Below are positions 14,964 through 64,000 of a DNA stretch of 64,000 bases, piece by piece. The notes under the pieces were generated by a model. That model saw only the letters and a program-made list of their open reading frames with translations. It did no database searches and was not told the DNA's origin. Within the stretch, counting starts at the first letter, position 1; the number at the start of each line of letters is the position of its first letter. Source of the stretch: Bradyrhizobium ottawaense (GTDB lineage Bacteria; Pseudomonadota; Alphaproteobacteria; Rhizobiales; Xanthobacteraceae); the NCBI RefSeq assembly GCF_002278135.3, contig NZ_CP029425.2, positions 1,960,001-2,024,000 of the forward strand, written 5' to 3'. The position numbers and the translations under genes are program-made.

Positions 14964-14975
14964 GGTCTCTCCTCC

Positions 14976-15102: not shown

Positions 15103-15171
15103 AGCCAGCTTGCGCTTCGACAAGGAGCCTTCGATCCATTCTGCTATCGTCGTTGCGGAACGGAGTTGTCC

Positions 15172-15369: not shown

Positions 15370-15408
15370 AGCGGTCCGGAATTCACGCGGGCGCGCGCGG
15401 ATTCCCGG

Positions 15409-15447
15409 GTGAGGGACGCTTTCGCCGTAAGCGGAAGCGCCTCTCAC
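15409..15447. terminator. bidirectional hairpin between the DUF1858 gene and nnrR
   Basis: Imperfect 17-bp stem: GTGAGGGACGCTTTCGC pairs with GCGGAAGCGCCTCTCAC around a CGTAA loop, with three non-Watson-Crick positions. It lies 40 bp past one stop codon and 57 bp past the other of two convergent genes, so it can serve both. No long T-run is present. Confidence 0.55.
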
Positions 15448-15503
15448 CCCTATCTCGATCCCTGTCTTAATCCCTATCTTGGGCGGAGACGTCCCGGCGG
15501 CTG

Positions 15504-16214: not shown

Positions 16215-16266
16215 TCTGCCTCCTTGGCATCAGGGAGTGTGATGGCACCTGCAATCGTTCGATAGT

Positions 16267-16280
16267 TTGCGATAGCGCAA
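16267..16280. promoter_or_regulatory. NnrR/FixK-type box between nnrR and nnrS
   Basis: TTGCGATAGCGCAA matches TTG-N8-CAA. It is 64 bp upstream of the nnrS ATG and 52 bp upstream of the nnrR ATG, so either promoter could use it. Confidence 0.78.
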
Positions 16281-16344
16281 AACGGGACGGCTGAGTGGCA
16301 GTATTTTTCCAGATAACGGACTGAAATTTATTGGAGTTGACCCC

Positions 16345-24132: not shown

Positions 24133-24138
24133 TACAGG

Positions 24139-24345
24139 TTACTTCGTCAGGATCAGCTTGTTCTGCGAGGTCAGGCGAAGCCGATAGCTGTCCTCGCCAT
24201 GCGCGATGATGATCTCGCGCTCGGCCGCAAACAGCTCGCGACTGTCGATCCGGCTCCCACGCATGGTGAGGGTTCTCGTTGTCGCAGCAGGGCTTCCTGC
24301 CGACCCCGCCGCGCCGCCGCTGCTGTCTCCTGATGTTGCTGACAT
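24139..24345 (-). CDS. hemP: hemin uptake protein HemP
   Basis: Small protein of about 68 residues. The C-terminal 45 residues are the HemP family domain: RTLTMRGSRIDSRELFAA then EIIIAHGEDSYRLRLTSQNK and LILTK. In some rhizobia and Burkholderia, HemP/HmuP is needed for expression of the heme receptor. The N-terminal Ser/Gly/Ala-rich part is variable; I start at the ATG at 24345, although no clear Shine-Dalgarno is seen and the frame is open to 24429. It leads the hmuTUV operon. Confidence 0.85.
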   Translation of the reverse strand: MSATSGDSSGGAAGSAGSPAATTRTLTMRGSRIDSRELFAAEREIIIAHGEDSYRLRLTSQNKLILTK

Positions 24346-24425
24346 GTAGGCTGTGATGCGCTTTCGAAACTCTGGAGTGCTGCTTGCTTGTTTGTATAAG
24401 CGGCACGAAGCGCATTCCAACGGCT

Positions 24426-24450
24426 GCAATTTACAATCGATATAAACTGC
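24426..24450. promoter_or_regulatory. imperfect palindrome in the hemP-hmuR divergent promoter
   Basis: Arms GCAATTTACA and TATAAACTGC pair at 8 of 10 positions around a short AT-rich centre with ATCGAT. It is 81 bp from the hemP start and 163 bp from the hmuR ATG in the most AT-rich stretch of the region. The position suits an operator for iron- or heme-dependent control (Irr/RirA/HmuP type), but it does not match a consensus I can cite with confidence. Confidence 0.4.
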
Positions 24451-24612
24451 AACCTGATGTCATTGACCGTCAGAGTGTTGCCACGTAACCAATTATGGCG
24501 GCGGGGTGACTTGCCCGCGTCTTGAGAAATCAGCCAGCCAGTCGTTCGCGTTGCGAACGCACGCCAGCCAAAAGACCTGAAATAATAGAGTGAAGTGCAG
24601 GCTGGGGCTGAT

Positions 24613-26961: not shown

Positions 26962-27053
26962 CGCCAGCTTCGCAGCACCACATCTCCGCCGGGCCGCGCT
27001 GATGCTCCAGCGCGGCTCCGCGCGTTTCGTTTTGATCAGAAGGAGAGACTTTG

Positions 27054-27386
27054 ATGTTCATCGCCATGAATCGTTTCCAGGTGAAGAAGGGCGCGGAGAC
27101 CGCGTTCGAAACCGTCTGGGCCACCCGTGAATCCTATCTCGGCAGCATGCCGGGCTTCGTCGAGTTTCACCTGCTGAAGGGCCCGGAGGCCGAGGACCAC
27201 ACGCTCTATTCGTCGCACACCACCTGGGTCGACAGGACGGCGTTCGAGGCCTGGACGCGCTCGGACCAGTTTCGTCGTGCCCATGCCCGCGCCGACAACT
27301 CGACCGGCGAGAGCCTGTATCTCGGCCATCCCAAGTTCGAGGGCTTTGAGGTGATCCAGAGCGAGCGCAAGGCCGCGGCCGCCTAG
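27054..27386 (+). CDS. IsdG-type heme-degrading monooxygenase (HmuD/HmuQ-like)
   Basis: Cytoplasmic dimeric alpha-beta barrel enzyme of 110 residues that opens heme to release iron. The catalytic triad of the IsdG/IsdI family is present: Asn6, Trp67 (FEAW) and His77 (RRAH). MPGFVEFHLLKGP is the family core. AGGAG lies 8 bp before the ATG. Bradyrhizobium has two such enzymes, HmuQ and HmuD; I cannot say which name applies. It follows the receptor gene and precedes hutX, so it processes heme imported by this locus. Confidence 0.9.
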   Translation: MFIAMNRFQVKKGAETAFETVWATRESYLGSMPGFVEFHLLKGPEAEDHTLYSSHTTWVDRTAFEAWTRSDQFRRAHARADNSTGESLYLGHPKFEGFEVIQSERKAAAA

Positions 27387-27410
27387 ATTGCAATGGCAGA
27401 GGAGCCGGAC

Positions 27411-27926
27411 ATGTTGAGCACCGATCTTGCCGATCTCAGGGCCCATATGGCCGACAATCCGGGCGAGGTGATCGAGGACGTTGCGCGCCAGCGCAAGGTC
27501 ACCCCGCGCAGCGTGATCGAGGCGCTGCCATCCTCCATGGTGCATATTGGCGGCGGCGAGCACTTTGCCGCCGCCATGCTGGACATCGCGGAGTGGGGCG
27601 AGGTCACGCTGATCGTGCACACCGATGACGCGATCTTCGAGTTCACGGGCGCTGTTCCTGCGGGCGAGATCGGCCGCGGCTACTTCAACCTGATGCAGCC
27701 GAAGGGTCTGCACGGCCATCTTCGCCACGAGCGCTGCGCTGGCGTCGCCTTCGTCGAGCGCCCGTTCATGGGCAAATCGTCGGCCTTCATCGCGTTCGTC
27801 AACGCCGACGGCGGCATCATGTTCAAAGTGTTCGTCGGCCGCGACGAGACAAGGGCGCTGCGGACGGATCAGCTGGCGCGGTTCCGGCAGCTCGCGGCCC
27901 GCATCACGGCGCAGCCGGCTGCGTAG
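27411..27926 (+). CDS. hutX: heme utilization cytosolic carrier HutX/HuvX
   Basis: Protein of 171 residues of the HutX/ChuX family, which binds heme in the cytoplasm and hands it to degrading enzymes. Landmarks are VARQRKVTPRSVIEALPSSM, EWGEVTLIVHTDDAIFEFTG and FNLMQPKGLHGHLRHERCAG. I start at the ATG at 27411 because AGAGGAG is 6 bp upstream; a start at 27393 would put that ribosome site inside the gene. It sits between the heme monooxygenase and exbB in the same operon. Confidence 0.9.
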   Translation: MLSTDLADLRAHMADNPGEVIEDVARQRKVTPRSVIEALPSSMVHIGGGEHFAAAMLDIAEWGEVTLIVHTDDAIFEFTGAVPAGEIGRGYFNLMQPKGLHGHLRHERCAGVAFVERPFMGKSSAFIAFVNADGGIMFKVFVGRDETRALRTDQLARFRQLAARITAQPAA

Positions 27927-27952
27927 CTTTCTTTTGTTGTCGGGAGATCAGG

Positions 27953-28723
27953 ATGCAAGGCAAGTCCAGGCTTCGGCAAATGGTCGTTGCAATCGCGCTG
28001 GCGCCGACACCGGCCTTCGCGATCGACGAAGCCCTGTTACCGCGCAATCTGTCGCCCTGGGGCATGTTCGTCAGCGCCGACATTATCGTGAAGACGGTGA
28101 TGATCGGGCTCGCTGTCGCCTCGCTGGTGACATGGACGGTGTGGCTCGCCAAGACCATCGAGCTGCGCCGCAAGGGCATGCTCGCCTTGCAGCGGACGCG
28201 CGGGCTCGAAGGCAACATGACGCTGGCTGAGGCATCGTCACGGGCCGGTGACGCGCACGATGCCGTTGCCCAGCTGATCCAGTCCTGCGCCAGGGAAGCC
28301 GAGCTCTCGGGCGGCATCCTCGACGACGGCCTTCAGGAGCGGGTGGCGCTGCGGCTCGAGCGGGTGGAGGCGGCGATGTCCAGGCAGATCGCGCGCGGCA
28401 CCGGCGTGCTCGCGACCATCGGCGCCACTGCGCCCTTCGTCGGCCTGTTCGGGACCGTCTGGGGCATCATGAACGCCTTCATCGGCATCTCCGAGAGCCA
28501 CACCACCAGCCTCGCGGTGGTCGCGCCGGGCATCGCGGAGGCGCTGCTCGCCACCGCGCTCGGCCTCGTCGCGGCGATCCCGGCGGTGGTGATCTACAAT
28601 CATCTGGTCCGCAGTATCGCCAATTACCGCGCGTTGCTCGGCGATGCCTCGGCGCAGCTGATGCTGCTGGTCAGCCGTCAGCGCGACCACAGGGAGTTCC
28701 GCCTGGCGCGGGCGGCGGAGTAG
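27953..28723 (+). CDS. exbB: ExbB proton-channel subunit
   Basis: Inner-membrane protein of 256 residues, MotA/TolQ/ExbB family, with three membrane helices. After a signal-like N-terminus (ALAPTPAFA), helix 1 starts near residue 45; the channel helices are in TGVLATIGATAPFVGLFGTV then WGIMNAFIGI, and in TSLAVVAPGIAEALLATALG then LVAAIPAVVIYN. With ExbD it uses the proton gradient to drive TonB and the HmuR receptor. ExbD starts 4 bp after its stop. Confidence 0.95.
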   Translation: MQGKSRLRQMVVAIALAPTPAFAIDEALLPRNLSPWGMFVSADIIVKTVMIGLAVASLVTWTVWLAKTIELRRKGMLALQRTRGLEGNMTLAEASSRAGDAHDAVAQLIQSCAREAELSGGILDDGLQERVALRLERVEAAMSRQIARGTGVLATIGATAPFVGLFGTVWGIMNAFIGISESHTTSLAVVAPGIAEALLATALGLVAAIPAVVIYNHLVRSIANYRALLGDASAQLMLLVSRQRDHREFRLARAAE

Positions 28724-28727
28724 GCCC

Positions 28728-29174
28728 ATGGGTGCGAAGCTCGGCGCGCGCGGGGGATCGCCGCTCAAGCGCGGTGACCCGGATGATCTCCACGTCGTCA
28801 ACGAGATTAACGTCACGCCGTTCATCGACGTGATGCTGGTGCTGCTGATCATTTTCATGGTGGCAGCCCCACTCGCCACCGTCGATATCGGTGTCGAGCT
28901 GCCCGCGACCGCAGCCGAGCCGGCGCCGCGGCCGGACAAGCCGACCTTCGTGACGGTGAAGCCGGATTCCACAATTGCCGTTGGCGAGGACACGATGGCC
29001 CGCGACGGTCTCGCCGCCGCCCTCGATGCCGTCATCAAAGGCCGTAAGGACGAGCGCATCTATCTGCGCGCCGACAAGGCCGTCTCCTACGGCGACCTGA
29101 TGGAGGTGATGAACACCCTGCGTAACGCCGGCTACCTCAAGGTTGCCCTCGTCGGCCTCGATGGACGCAACTGA
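28728..29174 (+). CDS. exbD: ExbD subunit
   Basis: Protein of 148 residues with one membrane helix (about 32-52) holding the conserved Asp in INVTPFIDVMLVLLIIFMV, and a periplasmic domain ending YGDLMEVMNTLRNAGYLKVA. It forms the proton-driven motor with ExbB. Its TGA overlaps the tonB ATG by one base, which couples translation. Confidence 0.95.
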   Translation: MGAKLGARGGSPLKRGDPDDLHVVNEINVTPFIDVMLVLLIIFMVAAPLATVDIGVELPATAAEPAPRPDKPTFVTVKPDSTIAVGEDTMARDGLAAALDAVIKGRKDERIYLRADKAVSYGDLMEVMNTLRNAGYLKVALVGLDGRN

Positions 29175-30004
29175 TGGCCGCGAACGCCTTTGCCCTGCAC
29201 GAGCCGCTTCGAGAGCGCGAGACCGCGCGCTGGGGCCTCTCGGCCGCGGTGATCGTGATGTTGCATGTGGCTGTCGCGCTGCTTGCGGTGAATTGGATCA
29301 GGTCGCAACCGGAACAGGGCGTCAGCCTCCCGGCGATCATGGTCGACATGGCACAGGTGACCTCGGCGCCGCAGTCGACGCAGGATGATGTTGCGCCGGG
29401 ACCGGTGATGCAGGAGGCCGACGCCTCGTCGCCGGAGCCCGTGCAGCAGCAAATGGCTGAGGAGACGATCGCGCCGACGCCGCCGCAGGAGAAGCCGGAT
29501 GTCGTGGCGCCGCCGGAGCAGAAGCCGGAGCCGACACCTGCCAGGCCGGAGCCCGCGAAGATCGTGCCGGTCGAAAAGCCGGCCCCGGTGAAGCCGAAGG
29601 TGGTTCGCCGCGAGGCCAAGAAGCCCTCGGAGGCGACCCCCGCGCCGCGCACCAGCGCAGCCCCGCGGGCCGAGCGCGAGGCGCCGATGGCATCGGCCCC
29701 GAGCGCCGGCGCGGCGGCCTCCGTGATTGCATCCTACAATCAGCGCGTCCGCGCGCATTTGATGCGCTTTCACCAATATCCCAGCGGTGGCGGCGGTCAG
29801 CGCGGCGTTGCCAGGCTGAGCTTCACCCTCAGCCGCAGCGGGCAGGTCACGTCCAGCCGTATCGGCGGCTCGTCCGGCGTTGCCGCTTTCGATGCCCAGG
29901 CCATGTCGATGATCCGCCAGGCCTCGCCGTTTCCGCCGGTGCCAGACGAGATCAAGAATGGGGCGATGAGCTTTTCGATCCCCGTGGAGTTTACGGTGAG
30001 GTAG
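29174..30004 (+). CDS. tonB: TonB energy transducer
   Basis: Protein of 276 residues. An N-terminal membrane helix (about 20-38) is followed by a long Pro/Glu/Lys-rich periplasmic spacer (about 55-160) and a C-terminal TonB domain (about 178-276) with YNQRVRAHLMRFHQYP, GVARLSFTLSRSGQV and FPPVPDEIKNGAMSFSIPVE. It spans the periplasm to the TonB box of HmuR. Last gene of the hmuR operon; a large palindromic repeat follows. Confidence 0.94.
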   Translation: MAANAFALHEPLRERETARWGLSAAVIVMLHVAVALLAVNWIRSQPEQGVSLPAIMVDMAQVTSAPQSTQDDVAPGPVMQEADASSPEPVQQQMAEETIAPTPPQEKPDVVAPPEQKPEPTPARPEPAKIVPVEKPAPVKPKVVRREAKKPSEATPAPRTSAAPRAEREAPMASAPSAGAAASVIASYNQRVRAHLMRFHQYPSGGGGQRGVARLSFTLSRSGQVTSSRIGGSSGVAAFDAQAMSMIRQASPFPPVPDEIKNGAMSFSIPVEFTVR

Positions 30005-51492: not shown

Positions 51493-52608
51493 CTAAACCA
51501 CGATACTCAACCTTTTCGCCGCCCGCGTGATGCCTGTGTACAGCCACCGCGCCCTTGAGTCCTGGAACGCAAAGCTCTCGTCGAACAGCACGACGTCGTC
51601 CCATTGCGAGCCCTGCGACTTGTGCACGGTCAGCACGTAGCCGTAGTCGAACTCGTCATAGGGCTTGCGCTGCTCCCAGGCGATCTGCTCGACGCCGCCC
51701 TCGAAGCAATCGGCGCGCACCGAGACCTTGGTCACCTTGTGGCCGAAATCCTCGTCCGGCGACAGCCGCATGCTGAGGATGCGCGATTTCGCGCGCGAGG
51801 TGTTGCGCGACTTCACGCGCCATAGCCCGCCGTTGAACAGGCCCTTCTTGCGGTTGTTGCGCAGGCATACCAGCTTGTCGCCGGCGACCGGGAAGACGTC
51901 CTCGATGTTCTGGCGCTGGCGCACCCGCATGTTGTAGGCGCGCCTGGTGTTGTTGCGGCCGACCAGCACCTGGTCGGCGCCCATGACCCTGTCAGGATCG
52001 AGCTCCTTGCGCGACACCACCTCGCTCTCGCCGTAGCGGCCGATGTCGAGCTCGCGTCCCTCGCGCACGTCCATCGACATCCGCACGATCGGATCGTCCT
52101 GCGCCTGGCGGTGCACCTCGGTCAGCATCGCGTCCGGTTCGGTGTTGGTGAAGAAGCCGCCGCCCTGGATCGGCGGCAGCTGCGCGGGATCACCCAGCAC
52201 CAGCAGCGGGCAGTCGAACGACATCAGGTCGCGGCCCAATTCGGCGTCGACCATCGAGCATTCGTCGATCACGATCAGCTTCGCCTTCGAGGCCGGCGCG
52301 TCGTCCCACAATTCGAAGCTCGGCTGCTCCTCGCCGGATTCGCGGGCGCGGTAGATCAGGGAGTGGATGGTGGAGGCATCGTCGCACCCCTTGTTGCGCA
52401 TGACGAGGGCGGCCTTGCCGGTGAAGGCGGCGAACTTCACCTCGCCGTCGACGCCGTCGGCGATGTGCCGCGCCAGCGTGGTCTTGCCGGTGCCGGCAAA
52501 GCCGAACAGACGGAAGATCGGCGGCGTGCCATTGCGGCCCGGCTTGGCCTTCAGCCAGTCGCCGACGGCCTTGAGAGCGGCATCCTGATGCGGTGTGAAA
52601 CTGGCCAT
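51493..52608 (-). CDS. RecD-like ATP-dependent DNA helicase
   Basis: Stand-alone superfamily 1 helicase of 371 residues. Motif I is GFAGTGKTTLARHIA (about 35-49), motif II VIDECSMVD, motif III LLVLGDPAQLPPIQGGGFF, and a UvrD_C_2-type C-terminus with DYGYVLTVHKSQGSQWDDVV and the final Arg of YTGITRAAKRLSIVV. It is shorter than RecD2 and lacks its N-terminal domains. It is divergent from the nap operon. A role in repair or recombination is likely but not specific. Confidence 0.88.
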   Translation of the reverse strand: MASFTPHQDAALKAVGDWLKAKPGRNGTPPIFRLFGFAGTGKTTLARHIADGVDGEVKFAAFTGKAALVMRNKGCDDASTIHSLIYRARESGEEQPSFELWDDAPASKAKLIVIDECSMVDAELGRDLMSFDCPLLVLGDPAQLPPIQGGGFFTNTEPDAMLTEVHRQAQDDPIVRMSMDVREGRELDIGRYGESEVVSRKELDPDRVMGADQVLVGRNNTRRAYNMRVRQRQNIEDVFPVAGDKLVCLRNNRKKGLFNGGLWRVKSRNTSRAKSRILSMRLSPDEDFGHKVTKVSVRADCFEGGVEQIAWEQRKPYDEFDYGYVLTVHKSQGSQWDDVVLFDESFAFQDSRARWLYTGITRAAKRLSIVV

Positions 52609-52871: not shown

Positions 52872-52885
52872 TTGATCTAGCGCAA
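52872..52885 (+). promoter_or_regulatory. FixK2/FNR-type box upstream of the napFDAGHBC operon
   Basis: TTGATCTAGCGCAA fits the FixK2 form TTG(A/C)-N6-(T/G)CAA. It is 124 bp upstream of the napF ATG. The distance suggests either a leader of about 80 nt with a class II site or a site further upstream. It would link the operon to low-oxygen control. Confidence 0.75.
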
Positions 52886-53009: not shown

Positions 53010-53369
53010 ATGCCGAGACCAATGTCGCGACGCTCACTATTCTCTGCCGTTCTGCCTTTCGCATCCGGCCGCGACGCGCTTGCGCCGCGCGTGAACGAGT
53101 CGTGCCCCGAACAGGTGGCGACCGTCTCCAGCGCGAGCGCCTGCGTCGAAAGACACGGCGTGGTCTGCCGTCGCTGCGTCGAAGCCTGTGAGCATTCCGC
53201 CATCCGCATTCTCGCGCGCGAGAAGCTCGGCGCCGTCATCGATGCCGCGGCCTGCACCGGCTGCGGCGACTGCATCCCGGTCTGCCCGGTCGAAGCCATC
53301 GCGCTCGCGCCGCGGGACCGGATCGCGCTGGTATCCGAACTTGCAAACCTGGTCGTGCACAATGGCTGA
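53010..53369 (+). CDS. napF: NapF-like ferredoxin protein (short form)
   Basis: Cytoplasmic-type iron-sulfur protein of 119 residues. It begins MSRRSLF after a few residues, typical of NapF. The sequence holds two 4Fe-4S cysteine clusters: CVERHGVVCRRCVEAC (about 45-60) and CTGCGDCIPVCP (about 83-94). Classical NapF is about 160-170 residues with more clusters, so this one is reduced. It is first in the operon; napD overlaps its end by 8 bp. NapF is thought to help NapA cofactor maturation. Confidence 0.82.
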   Translation: MPRPMSRRSLFSAVLPFASGRDALAPRVNESCPEQVATVSSASACVERHGVVCRRCVEACEHSAIRILAREKLGAVIDAAACTGCGDCIPVCPVEAIALAPRDRIALVSELANLVVHNG

Positions 53370-53697
53370 GGCCACCAACATCTGCGGCGTTGCCGTCTAT
53401 CTCGCACCGGATGCCGCGGACGGTCTGACGGACCGGATCCTGGCGTTGCCCGGCGTCGAGCTCGAGGCCGCATCCGGCGAGAACCGGCTTGCGCTGACCG
53501 TCGTCGATACGCCGGCCTCGCTGGCGATCGACCAGATCGCCGCGATGCATCGCCTGCCCGGCGTCGTCAGTGCCTCGCTGATCTTTCACGCCTTCGATGC
53601 GCCCGACGACGAGAGCGCGATCGAGACCGAGCCGGCCGCCTGCTGCGGCGGCCTCTGCCAGAATTCCGGCGCGCACGCGCGCCCTTCCGCAATTTGA
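53362..53697 (+). CDS. napD: NapD, NapA maturation chaperone
   Basis: Protein of 111 residues that binds the NapA twin-arginine signal peptide in the cytoplasm. The NapD fold is seen in [40 protein letters not shown] and [13 protein letters not shown]. The C-terminus is longer than usual and has a Cys cluster ([12 protein letters not shown]). Its start overlaps napF, and napA follows after 26 bp. Confidence 0.9.
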
Positions 53698-53723
53698 GAT
53701 TCGTTGAGCCGGAGAGACCGACG

Positions 53724-56273
53724 ATGGTTACGAAGTTGACGAACGGAAATGAAGCCACGGCGACCCGCCGCGATGCGTTGAAGGCAGCCGCAGCGGTTGC
53801 TGCCGCCTCGACCATCGGTGTGACGCTGCCGGATGCGGCGATCGCGCAGCCGGGGAAGACCGACGGCATCCGCTGGGACAAGGGCGTATGCCGCTTCTGC
53901 GGCACCGGCTGCGGCGTGATCGTCGGCACCAAGAACGGCAAGGTCGTGGCGACGCAAGGAGATCCCGATGCGCCGGTCAATCGCGGCCTCAACTGCATCA
54001 AGGGCTACTTCCTGTCCAAGATCATGTACGGCGAGGACCGGCTGACCCAGCCGATGCTGCGCATGAAGAACGGCAAGTTCGACAAGAACGGCGAGTTCGC
54101 GCCGATCTCGTGGGACGACGCCTTCAAGCTCATGGCCGAGAAATGGAAGACCGCGTTGAAGGCCGGTGGTCCCTCGACCGTCGGCATGTTCGGCTCGGGC
54201 CAGTGGACCATCTGGGAAGGCTACGCCGCCGCCAAGCTCTACAAGGCCGGCTTCCGCTCCAACAACCTCGATCCGAATGCGCGCCACTGCATGGCCTCGG
54301 CCGTCACCGGCTTCATGCGCACCTTCGGCATCGACGAGCCGATGGGCTGTTACGACGACATCGAGCATGCCGATGCGTTCGTGCTGTGGGGCTCGAACAT
54401 GGCGGAGATGCATCCGATCCTGTGGTCGCGCCTGACCGACCGCCGTCTGACCCATGAGGGCTGCGAAGTCCACGTGCTCTCCACCTTCGAGCACCGCTCG
54501 TTCGAGCTCGCCGACAATCCGCTGGTGTTCACCCCGCAGAGCGACATGGCGATCCTCAACTACATCCAGAACTACATCGTCAACTCCGGTGCGACGAACA
54601 AGGACTTCGTCGAGAAGCACGTCGAGTTCGCATCGACCGTGACCGACATCGGCTACGGATTGCGGCCGACGCACGCCCTCGAGATCAAGGCGCTCAACGC
54701 CTCGCACAAGGCCGGCAAGGACGGCGCGCTCGATCCGGCCGGGTTCAAGGACAAGATCGGATTCGACGAGTACAAGAGGCTGCTCGAGCCCTATACGCTC
54801 GACTATGCTCACAAGATGTCGGGCGTGCCGAAGGAGAATCTCGAGCGGCTCGCAAAGCTCTATGCCGATCCCAAGAAGAAGGTCGTCTCCTACTGGACGA
54901 TGGGCTTCAACCAGCATGCACGCGGCACGTGGGTCAACAACATGATCTACAACGTGCACCTCTTGATGGGTAAGATCTCGGAGCCCGGCAACGGCCCGTT
55001 CTCGCTGACCGGCCAGCCCTCGGCCTGCGGCACCGCGCGCGAGGTCGGCACCTTTGCCCATCGCCTGCCGGCCGATCTGGTCGTCACCAACCCGAAGCAC
55101 CGCGAGACGGCCGAGAAGGTGTGGCAGCTGCCCGAGGGCACCATCCCGGGCAACATCGGCTACCATGCCGTGCTGCAGAACCGGATGCTGAAGGACGGCA
55201 AGCTCAACGCCTATTGGGTCCAGTGCAACAACAACATGCAGACGGCCCCGAACATGAATGAGGAGGGCTATCCCGGTTATCGCAATCCGGCTGCCTTCGT
55301 CGTCGTCTCCGATCCCTATCCGACCGTGACCACGCTGGCTGCGGACCTCATCCTGCCGACGGCGATGTGGATGGAGAAGGAGGGCGCCTATGGCAATGCC
55401 GAGCGGCGCACCCAGTTCTGGCGCCAGCAGGTGAAGGCGCCGGGCGAGGCGCGCTCCGATCTCTGGCAGGTGATGGAGTTCTCCAAGTACTTCAAGATCG
55501 AGGACGTGTGGCCGGAGGAGCTGATCGCCAAGAAGCCGGAGGTGCGCGGCAAGACGCTGTTCGACGTGCTCTACGCCAACAGCGAGGTGAACAAGTTCCC
55601 GATCACCGAGTGCCAGAAGGGTTTTGACAATTCGGAGAGTGCCGCATTCGGCTTCTACGTGCAGAAGGGCCTGTTCGAGGAATACGCCAAGTTCGGCCGC
55701 GGTCACGGCCACGATCTGGCGGATTTCGAGCAGTATCACCAGGCGCGCGGCCTGCGCTGGCCGGTCGTCAGCAACAAGGAGACGCTCTGGCGCTTCCGCG
55801 AGGGCTACGATCCCTACGTCAAGCCGGGCGAGGGCGTGTCGTTCTACGGCAAGCCGGACAAGAAGGCGCGCATCATCTTCTGTCCGTTCGAGCCGGCGGC
55901 CGAAACGCCCGACAAGGAGTTCGATCTGTGGCTGTGCACCGGCCGCGTGCTGGAGCACTGGCATTCCGGCTCGATGACGCGCCGCGTCCCCGAGCTGCAC
56001 CGTGCCGTGCCGGCCGCGACGCTGTTCATGCATCCGGACGACGCGGCCGAGCGCAAGCTGTTGCGCGGACAGCCGGTGAAGATCCAGACGCGGCGCGGCG
56101 AGGTGGTCACGCGGGTCGAGACCAAGGGCCGCAACAAGCCGCCGCGGGGCCTCGTCTACTTCCCGTTCTTCGACGAAAGCCAGCTCGCCAACCAGCTCAC
56201 GCTCGATGCGACCTGTCCGATCTCGAAGGAGACCGACTTCAAGAAGTGCGCCTGCCGCGTGACGTCGGCCTAA
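53724..56273 (+). CDS. napA: periplasmic nitrate reductase catalytic subunit NapA (copy 1)
   Basis: Molybdoenzyme of 849 residues reducing nitrate to nitrite in the periplasm. A Tat signal ([20 protein letters not shown]) precedes the 4Fe-4S cysteines C56, C59, C63 and C91 and the invariant Lys93. The molybdenum ligand is Cys189 in [29 protein letters not shown] and [20 protein letters not shown] are molybdopterin-site blocks. The ATG at 53724 is preferred over an open frame to 53694. Partners are NapGH and NapBC downstream. It differs from the NapA encoded at 60988-63492. Confidence 0.97.
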
Positions 56274-56291
56274 ACCCTCGATGGACGAGCC

Positions 56292-57056
56292 ATGTCGGAT
56301 TCCAGCTCAGGCATCCCGCGCGATCCGCGCCGCCGCAAGGCGCTGCAGGATATGACGCGTTTCGGCGGCGGCGCAGCCGTCGCCGCAACGATGCTGACGG
56401 CATTCGGCGTGTCCTCGCGGGCCAAGCCAGCGCAGACGCTGCGGCCGCCGGGTGCGCTGCCCGAGAAGGATTTTCTGGCGGCCTGCGTCCGTTGCGGCCT
56501 GTGCGTTCGCGACTGTCCTTACGACACCCTGAAGCTGGCGGACTGGGCCGACGGGCCCGCGATGGGAACGCCGTTCTACGTCGCCCGCAACGTGCCTTGC
56601 GAGATGTGCGACACCATTCCCTGCGTCAAGGCCTGCCCGACCGGCGCGCTCGAGCATGCGCTGACCGACATCGCGAAGGCCAAGATGGGCGTCGCGGTGA
56701 TCACCAGCCGCGAGACCTGCCTCAATCTGCAGGGCTTGCGCTGCGACGTCTGCTATCGGGTCTGTCCGGCCATCGACAAGGCGATCACGCTCGAGGTCTC
56801 GCACAATGCGCGCACGACCAAGCACGCGATCTTCGAGCCGGTCGTTCACGCCGAGTCCTGCACCGGCTGCGGCAAGTGCGAGAAGTCCTGCGTGCTGACC
56901 GATGCCGCGATCAAGGTGCTGCCGATCGAGGTGGCCGCGCTGAAGCAGGATGCGCACTACAAGCGCGGCTGGGAAGAGAAGTCCAGGGCCGGCGGAGCCC
57001 TGGTCGACGCGCCGCTCAAGCTGCCGGTGCGCAGACCCGAGGGAGGCACGCCATGA
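56292..57056 (+). CDS. napG: NapG, periplasmic iron-sulfur protein
   Basis: Ferredoxin-type protein of 254 residues (MauM/NapG family). The N-terminal RRKALQDMTRFGGGAAVAAT is Tat-like. Four 4Fe-4S motifs follow: CVRCGLCVRDCP (about 58-69), CEMCDTIPCVKACP, CDVCYRVCP and CTGCGKCEKSC. It passes electrons from NapH toward NapC or NapA. Its stop overlaps the napH ATG. It is absent from the second nap cluster. Confidence 0.94.
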   Translation: MSDSSSGIPRDPRRRKALQDMTRFGGGAAVAATMLTAFGVSSRAKPAQTLRPPGALPEKDFLAACVRCGLCVRDCPYDTLKLADWADGPAMGTPFYVARNVPCEMCDTIPCVKACPTGALEHALTDIAKAKMGVAVITSRETCLNLQGLRCDVCYRVCPAIDKAITLEVSHNARTTKHAIFEPVVHAESCTGCGKCEKSCVLTDAAIKVLPIEVAALKQDAHYKRGWEEKSRAGGALVDAPLKLPVRRPEGGTP

Positions 57057-57997
57057 CGGCGAATGCCAGGCCTTATGTCGAAGCGCGCGCGGTCAAGGGA
57101 CTTTGGGCCGCCTCGCGGTTTCTGGTGCTGCGGCGGGCGAGCCAGCTGTTCTTCCTCGCGCTGTTCCTGTCGGGACCGCTTCTGGGCGTCTGGATCGCCA
57201 AGGGCACGCTGGCCTCGTCGATGACGCTCGGCACGCTGCCCCTGACCGATCCCTTCGTCTTGCTGCAATCGCTCGCGGCGCGCCATTGGCCCGAGGGCCT
57301 CTCGGTGATCGGCGCCGCGATCGTGCTCGCCGCCTATCTGCTGTTCGGCGGCCGGACCTATTGCTCCTGGGTCTGCCCGGTCAATCCGGCGACCGATCTT
57401 GCTGCCTGGCTGCGGCGGCGGCTGGGCATCACCTTCACGGCCAAGATCCGCCCGGAGCTCAGGCTCTATTTCGTCGGCGCGGTGCTCGCGGCCTCCGCAC
57501 TATCAGGGTCGATCGCCTGGGAGCTGATCAACCCGGTGACGGCGCTGCATCGCGCGCTGGTGTTCGGTCTCTGGTTCGGCGCCGGCGGCACCGCGGCGAT
57601 CTTCGTGTTCGATCTCCTCGTCGCCAGGCACGGCTGGTGCGGTCATCTCTGTCCCGTCGGCGCGTTCTACGGCCAAATCGGCAAGGTCGCGCTGCTGCGC
57701 GTCACCGCCGACAACCGTGCCGCCTGCAACGACTGCATGGATTGCTTCGCCGTCTGTCCGGAGCCGCATGTCATCGGCCCCGCGCTCAGGGGCGAGCGCA
57801 GCGGCGCCACGCCGGTCATCATTGCGGGCGATTGCACGCTCTGCGGAGCCTGCATCGACGTCTGCTCCAAGCAGGTCTTTCATCTCGGTCTGCGCGGCCG
57901 CAATGCGGCGCGTCCGGACCCCTCCATGACCGCGCCATCGCCAGCGGCGCGCGTCGTCTCTTCCCAGCCGGCCGTCCTTGAAAGGGACCTCCCATGA
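57053..57997 (+). CDS. napH: NapH, quinol dehydrogenase membrane component
   Basis: Inner-membrane protein of 314 residues with four helices, oxidising quinol for the nitrate reductase. The conserved cysteine motifs TYCSWVCPVNP and GWCGHLCPVGA occur in the cytoplasmic loops; two 4Fe-4S motifs, CNDCMDCFAVCPEP and CTLCGACIDVCSKQ, are near the C-terminus. It overlaps both neighbours by 4 bp (napG TGA, napB ATG). Length matches the family. Confidence 0.94.
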   Translation: MTANARPYVEARAVKGLWAASRFLVLRRASQLFFLALFLSGPLLGVWIAKGTLASSMTLGTLPLTDPFVLLQSLAARHWPEGLSVIGAAIVLAAYLLFGGRTYCSWVCPVNPATDLAAWLRRRLGITFTAKIRPELRLYFVGAVLAASALSGSIAWELINPVTALHRALVFGLWFGAGGTAAIFVFDLLVARHGWCGHLCPVGAFYGQIGKVALLRVTADNRAACNDCMDCFAVCPEPHVIGPALRGERSGATPVIIAGDCTLCGACIDVCSKQVFHLGLRGRNAARPDPSMTAPSPAARVVSSQPAVLERDLP

Positions 57998-58461
57998 CGT
58001 TTGTTCGACTGATTCCGTTGATCGCGGCGGCGGCCGTCGCCGTCGCAGTTGCAATTCCGTTCGCGGTGTCGGGCCCGCTTGCGCAGGAGGCCAAGCAGCC
58101 CAAGGCGCTGCGCGAGGCCCCGCTGACCGAGATGTCGGCGCCGCCCGACGTGACCAAGCAGTCGGTGCCGGCGAGCGGCTTCGAGCGCGCCTATCGCCAG
58201 CAGCCGCCGCTGATCCCCCACAAGATCGACGGCTACCAGATCACGACGGAGAACAACGCGTGCATGGGCTGCCACGACTGGCCCGGCAATACGCGCGTCA
58301 ACGCGCCGAAGATCTCGGAGACGCATTACGTCGACCGCCAGGGCGTGCGGCTCGATAAGGTCGCCGGCACGCGTTACTTCTGCCAGCAATGCCACGTGCC
58401 GCAGGCCGACGCGAAGCCGCTGGTCGGCAACATCTTCCAGAACGCGACGCAGGCGAAGTGA
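57994..58461 (+). CDS. napB: NapB, diheme cytochrome c subunit (copy 1)
   Basis: Electron-transfer subunit of NapA, 155 residues, with a signal peptide (LIPLIAAAAVAVAVAIPF). Two c-type heme motifs are CMGCH and CQQCH, in the contexts ENNACMGCHDWPGN and YFCQQCHVPQADAK. The segment QQPPLIPHKIDGYQI is a family marker. Follows napH and precedes napC. Confidence 0.95.
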   Translation: MTFVRLIPLIAAAAVAVAVAIPFAVSGPLAQEAKQPKALREAPLTEMSAPPDVTKQSVPASGFERAYRQQPPLIPHKIDGYQITTENNACMGCHDWPGNTRVNAPKISETHYVDRQGVRLDKVAGTRYFCQQCHVPQADAKPLVGNIFQNATQAK

Positions 58462-58468
58462 GGCTGAC

Positions 58469-59185
58469 ATGCAGGACACCAGCACTTCTGCCGCCGTCGC
58501 AGCAGCGCAGCCGGGTCGCCTGAAACGGCTGTGGCGATGGTTCTTCTCGCCGACCGCGCGCTACGCCTGGGGACTGATCGCCATCGTCGCATTCGCCGGC
58601 GGCGTCCTGTTCTGGGGCGGCTTCAACTGGGCGATGGAGCTGACGAACAACGAGCAGTTCTGCATCTCCTGTCACGAGATGAAGGAAAACGTCTATCTCG
58701 AATACCGCAACACGGTTCACTATTCGAACCGCACCGGCGTGCGCGCCAGCTGTCCGGATTGCCACGTGCCGAAGGAATGGAGCCACAAGGTCGTCCGCAA
58801 GATCCAGGCCTCGAACGAGGTGCTGCACAAGATCCTCGGCACCATCGGCACGCCCGAGAAGTTCAACGCCCACCGCATCGACCTTGCCAAGAGCGTGTGG
58901 CGCGGCATGAAGACGACGGATTCGCGTGAGTGCCGCAACTGCCACAAGTTCGACCACATGGAGTATGCGGTGCAGGAGCCGCGCGCCTCCAAGCTGCACC
59001 AGACCGCGTTCGCGCAGGGGAAGACCTGCATCGATTGCCACCAGGGCATCGCGCACAAGCTGCCGCCCAAGGCGCAGGAGGGATATCGCGATATGCTCGA
59101 GCATATCGACGAGGTCGGCCCCGTGCAGCGCATGATCGACTTCCTGCAGGATGCCGACGTCGCCAAGGCGAAGGCGGCGAGGTGA
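58469..59185 (+). CDS. napC: NapC/NirT tetraheme cytochrome c (copy 1)
   Basis: Membrane-anchored tetraheme protein of 238 residues that moves electrons from quinol to NapB. One N-terminal helix (about 32-54) precedes heme motifs CISCH, CPDCH, CRNCH and CIDCH. Landmarks are EQFCISCHEMKENVYLEY, VRASCPDCHVPKEWSHKV and HKLPPKAQEG. Its stop shares one base with the next ATG (TGATG), coupling it to the DUF2478 gene. Confidence 0.95.
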   Translation: MQDTSTSAAVAAAQPGRLKRLWRWFFSPTARYAWGLIAIVAFAGGVLFWGGFNWAMELTNNEQFCISCHEMKENVYLEYRNTVHYSNRTGVRASCPDCHVPKEWSHKVVRKIQASNEVLHKILGTIGTPEKFNAHRIDLAKSVWRGMKTTDSRECRNCHKFDHMEYAVQEPRASKLHQTAFAQGKTCIDCHQGIAHKLPPKAQEGYRDMLEHIDEVGPVQRMIDFLQDADVAKAKAAR

Positions 59186-59802
59186 TGGACATGCTTCAGC
59201 AATCCCGCGATACGGCGGATAGCGCGCCCCGGCCTTCCGCCGCCGTCAGCGTTGCCCTGGTCTATGATTCGGGCCCGGCCGTGAACCGGTGGTTCGCCGG
59301 TCTCGTCACCGAGCTTCGCGGCTCGGGCAAGAGCCTGGCCGGCCTGATCCAGGAGGACGTGCCGCAGCCGGGTCGCACACGCTGCGACATGGTTCTGCAC
59401 GAGCTCGCCACCGGCCGGTCGATGTCGATCTCCGAGGATCTCGGCGCAGGTGCGACCTCCTGCCGTCTGTCCACGCCGCGCCTGCTCGAAGCGGCGCAAC
59501 TGGTCGAAGCCCAGCTCGCCGACGCCGAGATCGTGTTTCTCAACAAGTTCGGCAAGGCCGAGGCGGAAGGCGGAGGGCTGCGCGACCTGATTGCCCATTG
59601 CATCGAGTCCGGCAAGAGCCTCGTGATCGGCGTTCCCAGCGGCAATCAGCAAGCCTGGACCGATTTCTGCGGCGAGTATTTCAGGACGGTCGCGGCAACG
59701 CCGGAGCCGAGCCAGGAGGCGATCGCGGCTCTTGCAGCTCTGCTCGGTCAGCCCAAGACTGGTAGCGCGAAGGCCGGCAGCGAGCAGCTACACGTGGCCT
59801 GA
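59185..59802 (+). CDS. DUF2478 protein in the nap operon
   Basis: Cytoplasmic protein of 205 residues. The DUF2478 signature is visible: VALVYDSGPAVNRWFAGLVT, VAGLIQEDVP-like SLAGLIQEDVPQ, CDMVLHELATGRSMSISEDL, GAGATSCRL and FLNKFGKAEAEGGGLRDLI. The order matches the THEP1-type NTPase layout, but the N-terminal loop lacks a Walker A lysine. Family members often lie near molybdenum genes, from memory. Its ATG overlaps the napC TGA, so it is translated with the reductase genes; a role in molybdenum cofactor supply is plausible. The function is unknown. Confidence 0.82.
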   Translation: MDMLQQSRDTADSAPRPSAAVSVALVYDSGPAVNRWFAGLVTELRGSGKSLAGLIQEDVPQPGRTRCDMVLHELATGRSMSISEDLGAGATSCRLSTPRLLEAAQLVEAQLADAEIVFLNKFGKAEAEGGGLRDLIAHCIESGKSLVIGVPSGNQQAWTDFCGEYFRTVAATPEPSQEAIAALAALLGQPKTGSAKAGSEQLHVA

Positions 59803-59844
59803 GGCCGCCTCCCGGCTCGTCCCACCGGACCGGCGGGCGCCATT

Positions 59845-59868
59845 GCTCCCGCTGGTTCAAGCGGGGGC
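59845..59868. terminator. hairpin between the two convergent nap operons
   Basis: Stem GCTCCCGCT pairs with AGCGGGGGC around GGTTCA (one mismatched pair). It lies in the 73-bp gap where the plus-strand and minus-strand nap operons meet. No T-tract follows, so termination efficiency is uncertain. Confidence 0.5.
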
Positions 59869-59875
59869 GGAAGCG

Positions 59876-60517
59876 CTATTGCCAGCCGGGAACGCCGCGC
59901 ATGTCGGGCAGCTTGTGGGCAATGCCCTTGTGGCAATCGATGCAGGTCTTCTCGCCGCTGAACAGGTAGCGCTGATGCGCAACCGAGGCCCGCGGCGACT
60001 GCTTCGTGATGTCCATGGAATCCGCGCTGTGGCAGTTGCGGCATTCCAGTGAATCGTTGGCCTTGAAGCGCGCCCATTCATGCGCGGCCAGCTCGAGCCG
60101 GTGATCCATGAATTTCTCGCGGGTGTCGATCGTGCCGAAGATCTTGCCCCAGACTTCCTTGGACGCCTGCATCTTGCGCGCGATCTTGTCGGTCCAGTTG
60201 TGCGGCACGTGGCAGTCCGGACAGGTGGCGCGGACACCGGAGCGGTTGGAGAAGTGGATGGTGGACTTCAGCTCCGCATAGACGTTGTCCTTCATTTCGT
60301 GACAGCCGGTGCAGAACTTTTCGGTGTTGGTCAGTTCCAGCGCGGTGTTGAAGCCGCCCCAGAAGATGACGCCCGCCACGAAGCCCGCGAGCACGAGCGT
60401 GCCGAGCGCGAACACAGAGCTCGGGCGCCTCAGCACGCCCCAGAGCTCGAGCACAAAGCTCCAGGTTCGCGCGATGAAGCCGCGCCTGGGCTTGGACTCC
60501 TCCGTGGTCGCGCTCAT
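59876..60517 (-). CDS. napC: NapC/NirT tetraheme cytochrome c (copy 2)
   Basis: Membrane-anchored tetraheme cytochrome of 213 residues, last gene of the napEDABC operon. The N-terminal helix is at about 37-58. Heme motifs are CTGCH ([18 protein letters not shown]), CPDCH, CRNCH and CIDCH. It is shorter than copy 1, mainly at the C-terminus, which ends MRGVPGWQ. The start overlaps the napB stop by 4 bp. Confidence 0.95.
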
Positions 60518-60984
60518 CGGCGGCCACCGGGGCTTGCGCGCGAGAGCAGCGTGTCGATGTCGACGAAGTCGTTGCTCACGGGCGGATTGGCGGTGTTCTG
60601 CGGCACGTGACACTCCGTGCAGAAGAAGCGACGCGGCGAGATCGAGGCCAGGAACTGGCCGTCGCGGTCCATGAAGTGGGTGATCGAGACCATCGGCGCC
60701 TGCGACTCCGCCGTGCGCGCGCGGGCATGGCAGGACAGGCACTTGTTGCCGTTGAGGTCGATCTGGTAGCCGTCGATCGTATGCGGGATCACCGGCGGCT
60801 GCTCCGGGTAGTTGCGCGTCTCCTTCTCGGAGGTGTTGCGGTTCGGCAGCATCGTCGGCGCCGGCCCTTCGTCGTTAAGCGGGGTCGGGCCGCGCAGGCC
60901 TGAATTGAGCGTCTGCGCGGTCAGCGCGCTCGCCCCCGCGGCAATCGCGAGCGCCAGCACGGCAATGCCAAGTCGCTTCATCAT
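60514..60984 (-). CDS. napB: NapB, diheme cytochrome c subunit (copy 2)
   Basis: Protein of 156 residues with a signal peptide ([20 protein letters not shown]). Heme motifs are CLSCH and CTECH, and [17 protein letters not shown] is the family marker. It starts 3 bp after the napA stop codon and overlaps napC. It transfers electrons from NapC to the NapA encoded upstream. Confidence 0.95.
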
Positions 60985-60987
60985 GGC

Positions 60988-63492
60988 TCACACCCGCTCG
61001 ATGCGCACGGCGCATTTCTTGTAGTCGGTTTGCAGCGAGATCGGATCGGTGGCGTCCAGCGTCACCTTGTTGATCAGCTTGGATTCGTCGAACCACGGCA
61101 CGAAGACCAGCCCACGCGGCGGCCGGTCGCGGCCGCGTGTCTCGACACGGGCGCGGATGAAGCCGCGCCGCGAGACCACCTTCACTTCGTCGCCGCGACG
61201 GAACTTGGCCTCCTGCGCATCGTCCGGGTGCATGAAGCACACGGCCTCGGGGAAGGCCTTGTAGAGCTCGGGCACGCGGCGCGTCATGGTGCCGGAATGC
61301 CAGTGCTCCAGCACGCGGCCGGTCGAGAGCCAGAACGGATATTCGCCGTCGGGCGATTCCGCCGGCGGCTCGTAGGGCAGGGCGAAGATGCGCGCCTTGC
61401 CGTCCGGATAGCCGTAGAACTGCACGTCGGTGCCCTGCTTGACGTAGGGGTCGCTGCCCTCGCGGAAACGCCATTTGGTTTCCTGGCCGTTGACGACAGG
61501 CCAGCGCAGGCCGCGCTCGCGGTGATAGGTCTCGAACGGCGCGAGGTCGTGGCCGTGGCCGCGGCCGAACGAGGCGTATTCTTCGAAGAGTCCCTTCTGC
61601 ACGTAGAAGCCGAATGCTTTGGATTCCTCGTTGGCGTAGCCCTCCTCGATCTCGGAGGTCGGGAATTTGTCGACCTGGCCGTTCTTGTAGAGCACGTCGA
61701 ACAGGGTCTTGCCGCGAACCTCGGGTTTCTTGGCGATCAGCTCCTCGGGCCAGACCTCCTCGATCTTGAAGCGCTTGGAAAACTCCATGAGCTGCCAGAG
61801 ATCGGACTTCGCCTCGCCGGGCGCGTTGACGAGCTGGTGCCAGAACTGCGTGCGCCGCTCGGCGTTGCCGTAAGCGCCCTCCTTCTCCACCCACATCGCG
61901 GTCGGCAGGATCAGGTCGGCGGCCAGGGCCGTCACCGACGGATAGGCGTCCGAGACCACGATGAAATTGTCGGGATTACGGAAGCCCGGATAGGTCTCCT
62001 CGTTGGTGTTGGGGCCGGCCTGGAGATTGTTGTTGACCTGCACCCAATAGGCGTTGATGAGGCCGTCCTTCAGCATCCGGCTCTGCAACACGGCATGTGC
62101 GCCGGGCTTGTCGGGAATGGTGCCCTCGGGCAGCAGCCAGAGATGCTCGGCGTGGTCGCGGTGCTGCTTGTTGGTCACCACCATGTCGGCGGGGAGGCGG
62201 TGCGAGAAGGTGCCGACCTCGCGCGCGGTGCCGCAGGCGGAGGGCTGCCCGGTCAGCGAGAACGGGCTGTTGCCGGGCGAGGAGATCTTTCCGGTCAACA
62301 GATGGATGTTGTAGACGAGGTTGTTGCACCAGACGCCGCGGGTGTGCTGGTTGAAGCCCATGGTCCAGAACGAGACCACCTTGGTCTTCGGGTCGGCATA
62401 GAGCTCGGCCAGCGCCTCGAGGCGGTTCAGCGGCACGCCGGACATCTCCGCCGCTTTCTCCAGCGTGTAGTCCGAGACGAACTTGACGAATTCGTCGTAG
62501 CTCATGTCGGTGGAGTCATTGGCCTTCGCCGCACCCGTCGCCTTCTTCTGCAGCGGATGCTCGGGCCGCAGGCCGTAGCCGATGTCGGTCTGGCCGCGCC
62601 TGAAGATGGTGTGTGCGGCGACGAAGTCCTTGTGGACCCGGCCGGTCTTGATGATGTGATGGGCGATGGCGTTGAGAATGTAGAGGTCGGTTTGCGGCTT
62701 GAACACCATGCCGATGTCGGCGAGGTCGAACGAGCGGTGCTCGAAGGTCGAGAGCACGGCGACGCGGACATGCGGCGCCGAGAGCCGGCGGTCGGCGAGG
62801 CGCGTCCACAGGATGGGGTGCATCTCCGCCATGTTGGAGCCCCACAGCACGAAGGCGTCGGTCGCCTCGATGTCGTCGTAGCAGCCGGCCGGCTCGTCGA
62901 TGCCGAAGGTGCGCATCATGCCGGCGACGGCCGAAGCCATGCAGTGCCGCGCGTTGGGATCGATGTTGTTGGTGCGGAAGCCGGCCTTGAACAGTTTCGA
63001 GGCGGCATAGCCTTCCCAGATCGTCCACTGGCCCGAGCCGAACATGGCGACGCCGTTCGGTCCGCGCTTCTTCATCGCCTCCTTCCACTTCACCTCCATG
63101 ATGTCGAAGGCTTCGGTCCAGGACACGGGCGTGAACTCGCCGTTCTTGTCGTATTTGCCGTTCGCCTTGCGCAGCATCGGCTGCGTCAGGCGGTCGTGGC
63201 CGTACATGATCTTGGAGAGGAAATAGCCTTTGACGCAGTTGAGGCCGCGATTGACCTCGGCCTTGATGTCGCCGTGGGTCGCGACCACGCGGTTGTCCTT
63301 GGTGGCGACCATCACGGAGCAGCCGGTGCCGCAGAAGCGGCAGGCGGCCTTGTCCCATTTCAATTCGCTCGCCTCCCGCTCGGCGGCGAGATTGGCGGCG
63401 AGCGCCGGGACCGGCATGCCGGCAGCGGCGGCCGCGATCGCGGCAGCCTCCAGCTTCAGCATCTGGCGGCGGTCGAGCTTTGGCGATGTCAT
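60988..63492 (-). CDS. napA: periplasmic nitrate reductase catalytic subunit NapA (copy 2)
   Basis: Molybdoenzyme of 834 residues, second nitrate reductase of the window. The Tat signal reads [20 protein letters not shown]. The 4Fe-4S cysteines are C51, C54, C58 and C86, with Lys88, and the molybdenum ligand is Cys184 in NARHCMASA. Further blocks are [20 protein letters not shown] and [20 protein letters not shown]. It belongs to a napEDABC operon, the layout known from B. japonicum, where electrons come through NapC only. Confidence 0.97.
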
Positions 63493-63509
63493 GATGGCTC
63501 TCCCGGTCT

Positions 63510-63824
63510 TTAGGCGGTTTCGATGGCGTGGAAGACGAGCGCCGCGGAATAAACGTGTCGCAGGGATTGGATGGTGTTGAGCATGGTGCCGAGGCTGCCG
63601 GCGTCCAGCGCCTCGGCCACGACCACGAGCTTGCCACGCACGTCGCGGCCGTAAATCTCGCAGCCCGCGAGGGCGGTGATGTCGGCTTCGACGTCGGCGA
63701 GATGCTCGGGGCGCGCCTGCACCACGATACTGGCAATCTCGCCCCCGGGCGGGGGCACGATGCGGTCGGCGCCGAGCACCTGTCCCGTGATCAGCGCGCG
63801 ACGGTTGAGTTTGGCTTGGGCCAT
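63510..63824 (-). CDS. napD: NapD, NapA maturation chaperone (copy 2)
   Basis: Cytoplasmic protein of 104 residues that binds the NapA signal peptide. It holds the NapD core [40 protein letters not shown] and [12 protein letters not shown]. An unusual N-terminal extension ([20 protein letters not shown]) resembles the start of NapF. It lies between napE and napA. Confidence 0.92.
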
Positions 63825-63843
63825 ATGCCTGCCTTTCTGGATA

Positions 63844-64000
63844 TCAATGCGGGGTCGGAGGCGGGCCGGGCGGGCCCGCGAACATCTGGTAGATCCACAC
63901 GGCCAGCCCGTAGCTGCCGACGGTCCCGACCGCGAGGACGGGCATCACGACCGCCGTCAGGAACAGGAACGCGAAGATCTCCATGCGCCGTTGGCGCAAA
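63844..64000 (-). CDS. napE: NapE small membrane protein (N-terminus outside the window)
   Basis: The visible 51 residues read RQRRMEIFAFLFLTAVVMPV and continue LAVGTVGSYGLAVWIYQMFA to a Pro-rich tail GPPGPPPTPH. One membrane helix and the GxxGPPG-like ending are typical of NapE. The gene begins beyond position 64000; an internal ATG is at 63984. It is first in the napEDABC order. The function of NapE is unknown. Confidence 0.85.
   Translation of the reverse strand, partial: LRQRRMEIFAFLFLTAVVMPVLAVGTVGSYGLAVWIYQMFAGPPGPPPTPH

Follow-up and report, generated by a model that had tools for sequence, protein, structure and literature searches.

Two periplasmic nitrate reductase operons of different type, converging in one Bradyrhizobium genome and using one chromosomal slot across the genus

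Why would evolution swap operons in one chromosomal slot, and sometimes retain both? The question is raised by a 64-kb stretch of DNA (the window, positions 1960001–2024000 of a single 8,589,152-base contig of Bradyrhizobium ottawaense, genome label G000), in which a plus-strand cluster of periplasmic nitrate reductase (Nap) genes with the order napF-like-D-A-G-H-B-C plus a DUF2478 gene (cluster 1) converges on a minus-strand napEDABC operon (cluster 2), with 73 bp between the stop codons. Comparison within the genus revealed one chromosomal slot with three states, scattered over the species tree: A (napEDABC), B (napFDAGHBC, mostly with the DUF2478 gene) and AB (both). It is likely that the slot, flanked by a RecD-like gene and by a luciferase-like monooxygenase (LLM) gene, holds A, the common state, or B, the rarer one, and that G000 and one other genome, G123, hold both, tail to tail. 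There is no settled answer as to why some nitrate reducers keep a NapGH branch besides NapC. In Bradyrhizobium, close relatives differ in this very cassette while sharing its location and the kind of promoter box, and one strain has both; this natural comparison, in a genus that matters for soil nitrous oxide, can be tested directly with the A, B and AB genomes described below.

Gene content and lineage of the two operons

The features of the locus are as follows, with window coordinates.
51493–52608, minus: RecD-like gene with AAA and UvrD_C_2 domains (PF13604, PF13538), left border of the slot
52872–52885, plus: FixK2-type box TTGATCTAGCGCAA, 138 bp 5′ of napF, a consensus match conserved in relatives
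53010–53369, plus: napF-like gene for a short ferredoxin of 119 aa with two sets of 4Fe-4S motifs (position, partial similarity)
53362–53697, plus: napD1, NapA1 chaperone, ATG at 53362, overlapping napF (PF03927, 53.8 bits)
53724–56273, plus: napA1, catalytic subunit of the napGH-type cluster, ATG at 53724 (TIGR01706, 1493.3 bits)
56292–57056, plus: napG1 (PRK09476, 341.7 against a cut-off of 269)
57053–57997, plus: napH1 (PRK09477, 379 against a cut-off of 234)
57994–58461, plus: napB1, dihaem cytochrome c (PF03892, 149.4 bits; two CxxCH)
58469–59185, plus: napC1, tetrahaem quinol dehydrogenase (PF03264, 249.9 bits; four CxxCH)
59185–59802, plus: DUF2478 gene, last of cluster 1, ATG at 59185 (PF10649, 130.1 bits)
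59803–59875: 73-bp gap with a G+C-rich hairpin resembling, by eye, the one found 3′ of napC where napEDABC occurs alone
59876–60517, minus: napC2 (TIGR02161, 325.1 against 310.6)
60514–60984, minus: napB2 (PF03892, 165.7 bits)
60988–63492, minus: napA2, catalytic subunit of napEDABC (TIGR01706, 1560.8 bits)
63510–63824, minus: napD2 (PF03927, 83.9 bits)
63844–64032, minus: napE, its first 32 bases outside the window (TIGR02973, 81.6 against 68.8)

The gene order, strands and 73-bp gap given in a preliminary description of this DNA were reproduced, with some start codons moved and napE found to extend beyond the window. Cluster 1 combines napG and napH with napA, napB and napC in one same-strand run, whereas cluster 2 has the order napE-D-A-B-C and a NapC without NapGH; napC is thus present in both clusters and NapGH, as had been claimed, is limited to the first. 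The tail-to-tail order recurs in G123 and G000 is a single contig, so that an assembly accident of one genome does not account for it. A scan of the 20-kb nap region against Rfam gave no match.

Both NapA proteins pass the TIGR01706 cut-off of 930.55 bits, curated cut-offs are likewise exceeded by NapG, NapH, NapE and NapC2, and Pfam cut-offs by NapB, NapC and NapD of both clusters and by the DUF2478 protein. Scores fell under the NCBIfam cut-offs for NapC1 (TIGR02161, 288.6 vs 310.6), for NapB1 and NapB2 (107.3 and 111.7 vs 230) and for NapD1 and NapD2 (26.5 and 46.7 vs 113). The first gene of cluster 1 reached 30.7 bits against the 102.2 required by the NapF model TIGR00402 and is therefore named napF-like, by position and partial similarity. 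The motifs CxxCx3Cx27C and NARHCM are intact in NapA1 and NapA2, and each NapB has two and each NapC four CxxCH in both clusters; taking these as the Nap ligand motifs, the cofactor ligands of NapA are present in both copies, as first proposed.

The two sets of proteins differ throughout, with identities of 68% for NapA (834 columns), 57% for NapC (180 columns), 40% for NapB (107 columns) and 24% for NapD (74 columns). In a tree of 85 NapA proteins, hand-chosen from 160 extracted, NapA1 fell in a clade of 12 rows (support 100) in which the B-type proteins of Bradyrhizobium join those of Beijerinckiaceae, Alsobacter and an unplaced alphaproteobacterial metagenome-assembled genome (MAG); its sister clade (88) has seven rows and includes Rhodoplanes and a Xanthobacteraceae MAG. 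NapA2 fell in a separate clade of 16 rows (99), made up of napEDABC-type proteins of Bradyrhizobium and further genera of the family. The phylogeny that the preliminary description had called for thus places NapA1 with napGH-type and NapA2 with napEDABC-type proteins, not as sisters, and a recent tandem duplication is ruled out by the 68% identity and the separate supported clades. Together with the gene content, these clades support the view that two electron-entry designs lie side by side in one organism.

Alignment of 16 DUF2478 proteins showed two cysteines conserved in every sequence and an NK-F/Y-G motif whose N and G do not vary. The protein weakly resembles NTPase_1 (E 0.041), and comparison with solved structures gave no match; a role in molybdenum or Fe-S maturation is a guess. 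A DUF2478 match lies near napA in 9 of the 76 best NapA1-matching loci outside the genus (L008, L013, L014, L022, L024, L033, L047, L050, L061), and among the literature matches listed one paper, on Methanoperedens plasmids, mentions the family.

One slot, three states

NapA, counted at E ≤ 1e-100 in a search of 265 genomes of the genus with NapA1, was present in 177. A NapA1-type (napGH-type) protein was found in 15 of the 265 with 91–100% identity (the G206 copy being partial), in all 15 with napG and napH alongside and in 12 with DUF2478, which was not found in the deep-clade genomes G152, G202 and G094. NapA1-type and NapA2-type proteins occurred together in two genomes, G000 and G123. Double matches were also obtained in G143, a fragmented, 87%-complete genome, and in G106, where they are pieces of one broken napA2; at this state A locus (L265) napA2 is present from about 8318 as two overlapping pieces, one with an internal TGA.

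The slot was typed in 60 of the 177 NapA-bearing genomes, giving 45 A, 13 B and 2 AB, and seven further loci (G106 and six genomes of a third type) were read. Of the 45 A genomes 43, and of the 15 B or AB genomes 14, have a nap operon bordered by the RecD-like gene; in two of the remaining genomes the contig ends there (G083, G206), and G034 has a different neighbour. Past the opposite end of the operon, either adjacent or a few kb away, the LLM gene was found in 38 of the A genomes and in 12 of the B or AB genomes. The synteny check proposed earlier accordingly places both operon types in one slot by the RecD-like gene. State A adjoins the RecD-like gene in another genus of the family too (G309), so that napEDABC is probably the older occupant. 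The third nap type (L259–L264) has napF followed by a NapA 71–72% like NapA2 in six Bradyrhizobium genomes, and neither slot-flanking gene was present within the stretch fetched from these six; in G232 the napA match contains a TAG. Among plasmid sequences the best NapA matches reached only 78.5% (NapA2) and 75.8% (NapA1), and no plasmid vehicle was found.

The age of the operons was estimated from synonymous divergence (dS) and from the ratio of nonsynonymous to synonymous divergence (omega), using Nei-Gojobori counts from our own script and comparing the deep clade of each type (B, G152 and G094; A, G096, G166 and G138) with the core. Across this split the median dS was 0.47 for napA1, 0.52 for napG, 0.57 for napB1 and 0.68 for both napC1 and napH in cluster 1, and 0.47, 0.60 and 0.70 for napA2, napC2 and napB2 in cluster 2. 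The flanking RecD, LLM and MsrA genes gave 0.48–0.57, a similarity which argues that neither operon is a newcomer. Between G000 and G123, dS was 0.18–0.25 for napA, B, C, G and H of cluster 1 and 0.16–0.31 for napA, B and C of cluster 2, with 0.26 for RecD, 0.35 for LLM, 0.11 for rpoB and 0.12 for rpoC. The corresponding omega values were 0.053–0.100 in cluster 1 (napA1 0.089) and 0.085 and 0.034 for napA2 and napC2, respectively, and neither catalytic gene looks degraded. Judged by these substitution counts, both operons have a long history in the genus and both have been kept, with purifying selection in both double genomes. Relaxed selection on cluster 2 was hinted at by long end branches of napA2 and was not confirmed by omega.

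The state B label required six changes, all six forced by starred branches, on an rpoB and rpoC (rpoBC) tree of 40 genomes, and six changes, three of them forced, on an rpoBC+gyrB tree of 30 genomes. G123 grouped with the state B genomes G249 and G084 in both species trees (100/100 in rpoBC+gyrB) and G000 lay near A genomes; B is thus scattered among close relatives, and the doubles are not sisters. The tree of the B cluster (14 genomes) agreed in placing G123 with G084 and G249 (100/100), with G000 basal to a clade of eight. In the tree of the A cluster (napDABC, 37 genomes), G000 and G123 were sisters (100/100), apart from the 35 A-only genomes. Specifically, napB2–napC2, which adjoins cluster 1, is 92.5–95.3% identical between the two doubles (sisters at 100), against 88–93% to the best A-only genome, and napD with the 5′ part of napA2 also made them sisters, at 98. 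Because the doubles share this distinct napB2–napC2 segment, the tail-to-tail join probably goes back to a single event, followed by recombination in napA2. The gap offers a further likeness: by eye, its hairpin in G000, with the loop TGGTTCAA, is like the hairpin 3′ of napC in A-only genomes, the 11 core B or AB genomes inspected have an altered copy of the element next to the RecD-like gene, and the shorter gap of G123 keeps the TGCTCCCGC stem. Recombination through the conserved flanking sequences would switch the states, and an AB locus would have formed when a B cassette joined beside the A operon without replacing it. The reverse course, B-only genomes arising from AB by loss of A, was considered and set aside: no napEDABC remnant was seen by eye in the DUF2478–LLM stretch of 8 of the 13 B-only genomes, all alike, and AB is therefore preferred as the derived state.

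Predicted control, electron routes and denitrification

FixK2 of B. diazoefficiens binds TTGA/C-N6-T/GCAA (PubMed Central PMC6710368, as excerpted). A consensus box lies 5′ of napF in all 14 genomes read and 5′ of napE in 45 of 46, the sole failure being G000, where the box TTGATCCATGTCAG (L003 13127–13140, corresponding to 64126–64139 and thus outside the window) is one conserved base off. The loose consensus matches seven times in the window against 3.07 expected, so that the evidence lies in the conservation of the box and not in the match itself; 3% of random 300-bp window pieces contain a box. The predicted boxes would place cluster 1, and cluster 2 in nearly all relatives read, under low-oxygen control. 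In G000, with the one-base change in its napE box, cluster 1 would be expected to dominate, and expression of cluster 2 to be weaker or confined to different conditions.

By homology, both enzymes would reduce periplasmic nitrate with electrons passing from ubiquinol through NapC and NapB to NapA, and in cluster 1 NapH and NapG would add a second quinol-oxidizing branch, most likely into NapC1/NapB1, that may give nitrate a larger share of the quinol pool. In the literature as excerpted, NapC passes electrons from quinol to NapB and NapA and NapGH is an additional quinol dehydrogenase, which in E. coli works via NapC and is not essential (PMC5845722, PMC8139620); according to a review, what exactly it does in E. 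coli is not yet clear (PMC8139620).

A search of the G000 genome for NarI, other nitrate reductases not being searched, found none, and the genome has nirK (window 11087–12190) and one nosZ, so that Nap is likely the entry enzyme of its denitrification chain. Across the genus, nosZ was present in 13 of 15 NapA1 genomes compared with 54 of 162 other NapA genomes (Fisher p 7.5e-5). Phylogenetically independent comparison yielded five pairs and was not significant, and the state A genomes G118, G048 and G148, close to B lineages, carry nosZ too; nosZ is thus commoner with NapA1, which may reflect shared ancestry.

The window region 11087–17556 is a denitrification neighbourhood with nirK on the minus strand, a hemN-like gene and an NnrS-like membrane protein (the latter two by eye), and FixK2-type boxes occur at 13470 and 13508, before the hemN-like gene; nirK and nap are about 41 kb apart in G000 and about 50 kb apart in G027. 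In G081 (L116, about 4486–6957, minus strand) a Sec-dependent (clade II) nosZ (TIGR04246, 866 bits) lies just past the LLM gene beside a B-type nap operon; its neighbours, by eye, encode two c-type cytochromes, a membrane protein and a NosD-like protein. G123 and G206 each have a further nos_propeller gene with a comparable, lower score.

Alternative readings and known systems

Beyond the slot itself, the two operons might be long-lived alternative alleles of one respiratory locus, sharing the slot since before the deepest split compared, repeatedly exchanged between species and kept by selection for different electron feed; the NapGH allele would be favoured in complete denitrifiers (nosZ), and the rare double would be a stable, heterozygote-like state whose promoters are starting to diverge. 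This fuller account is offered tentatively, as a suggestion more than an expectation.

A number of results weigh against the slot model. Fifteen of 265 genomes are a small base for switch counts, and gyrB alone required eight changes of the B label with only three forced. The sister of G000 differs by tree, being G118 with rpoBC (91/96) and G192 plus G185 with rpoBC+gyrB (97/99), all state A. The trees of the flanking genes needed as many B changes as the species trees (RecD six, three forced; LLM seven, five forced), so that hitch-hiking of the flanks with the cassette is not supported. The C-terminal part of napA2 separates G000 from G123, leaving the single join to rest on napB2–napC2, the napD end and the short intergenic match, and the gap differs between the two in length and sequence. 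The deep-versus-core dS of rpoB and rpoC is lower (0.30–0.35) than that of the operons, perhaps through codon bias, and omega of napB2 is 0.238 between the doubles, from few changes, against a median of 0.113 in other pairs. Regarding function, the altered napE box retains most positions, boxes ending in CAG are among the putative FixK2 boxes of PMC6710368 as excerpted, and deletion of napGH in Azospira PS had no significant effect on growth according to the excerpts of PMC5845722.

The same slot could also be a recombination-prone place at which interchangeable operons come and go without a function of their own, a reading compatible with the slot model and possible, if somewhat doubtful. The scatter of the states over the species tree, the conserved flanks on both sides and the mosaic that napA2 of the doubles forms with A-only genomes all suit it, whereas the long survival of both types does not, nor does the nosZ association, as far as that is independent of phylogeny. 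It is rather unlikely that the double is transitional, a frozen or ongoing replacement of A by B in the course of which G000 is losing cluster 2. The presence of both types in only 2 of 177 NapA-bearing genomes, the napE box altered in G000 alone among 46 and the napB2 omega would agree with such a replacement; the reading frames of cluster 2 are nevertheless open, napA2 and napC2 show the low omega values given above, and its dS between the doubles is like that of cluster 1, RecD and LLM, so that the cluster 2 copies have lasted about as long as the separation of the cluster 1 copies. Least probable is a late entry of napFDAGHBC into this strain from another alphaproteobacterium beside a native napEDABC: NapA1 does cluster with napGH-type proteins from outside the genus and G000 has state A neighbours in the species trees, but the nearest NapA1 proteins are those of other Bradyrhizobium (96–98% identity in the core and 91–92% in the deep clade, against 89, 88 and 86% outside the genus), 14 of the 15 carriers have B adjoining the RecD-like gene, cluster 1 resembles the flanking genes in its dS across the genus, and the GC content of the nap region does not leave the range seen in the window. 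Import of a cluster from beyond Bradyrhizobium is thus largely refuted, and exchange between Bradyrhizobium species is possible. A recent import into this strain alone is contradicted by the 15 carriers, the common slot and the flank-like divergence.

The slot model can be set beside known systems. Cluster 2 corresponds to napEDABC of B. diazoefficiens and B. japonicum in genes, order, slot and, in relatives, FixK2 box, with the napE box of G000 differing at one conserved base. G027 and G057, taken as USDA110 and USDA6, are state A with no napGH-type NapA found, in line with the statement, which agrees with the literature as excerpted, that B. japonicum has napEDABC alone. The E. coli nap operon has the order napFDAGHBC. 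Cluster 1 shares this order, as it does that of Magnetospirillum in the excerpted literature, and differs in its terminal DUF2478 gene, its short napF-like gene and its position in the Bradyrhizobium napEDABC slot. Outside the genus, napG and napH lie behind napA in 68 of the 76 best NapA1-matching loci, many betaproteobacterial ones showing no napC.

In Shewanella, strains have NAP-alpha (napEDABC), NAP-beta (napDAGHB) or both, with NapA 71% identical (PMC6308320, as excerpted), and the likeness to G000 lies in the two operon types in one genome. NAP-beta uses CymA in place of NapC, whereas cluster 1 has its own napC, and the excerpts mention neither a shared slot nor a tail-to-tail join (PMC6308320). 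That two Nap types occur alone or together, and that napGH-bearing clusters are widespread, is already known. Among the matches listed in the open-licence PubMed Central literature, there was no published Bradyrhizobium double or napGH-type nap, and within those matches the alternation with napEDABC in one Bradyrhizobium slot, its age and the tail-to-tail double are apparently undescribed. A family-wide sample of 391 genomes contained two Rhodoplanes genomes, R. elegans (G392) and G341, that have clusters of both types, napGH and napEDABC, on different contigs, with no adjacency seen; the two matches in G538 of this sample look like one napA in two pieces.

Elsewhere in the window, positions 21273–30004 hold what by eye is a haem-uptake locus, with an ATP-binding cassette transporter, a TonB-dependent receptor and ExbB/TonB-like genes.

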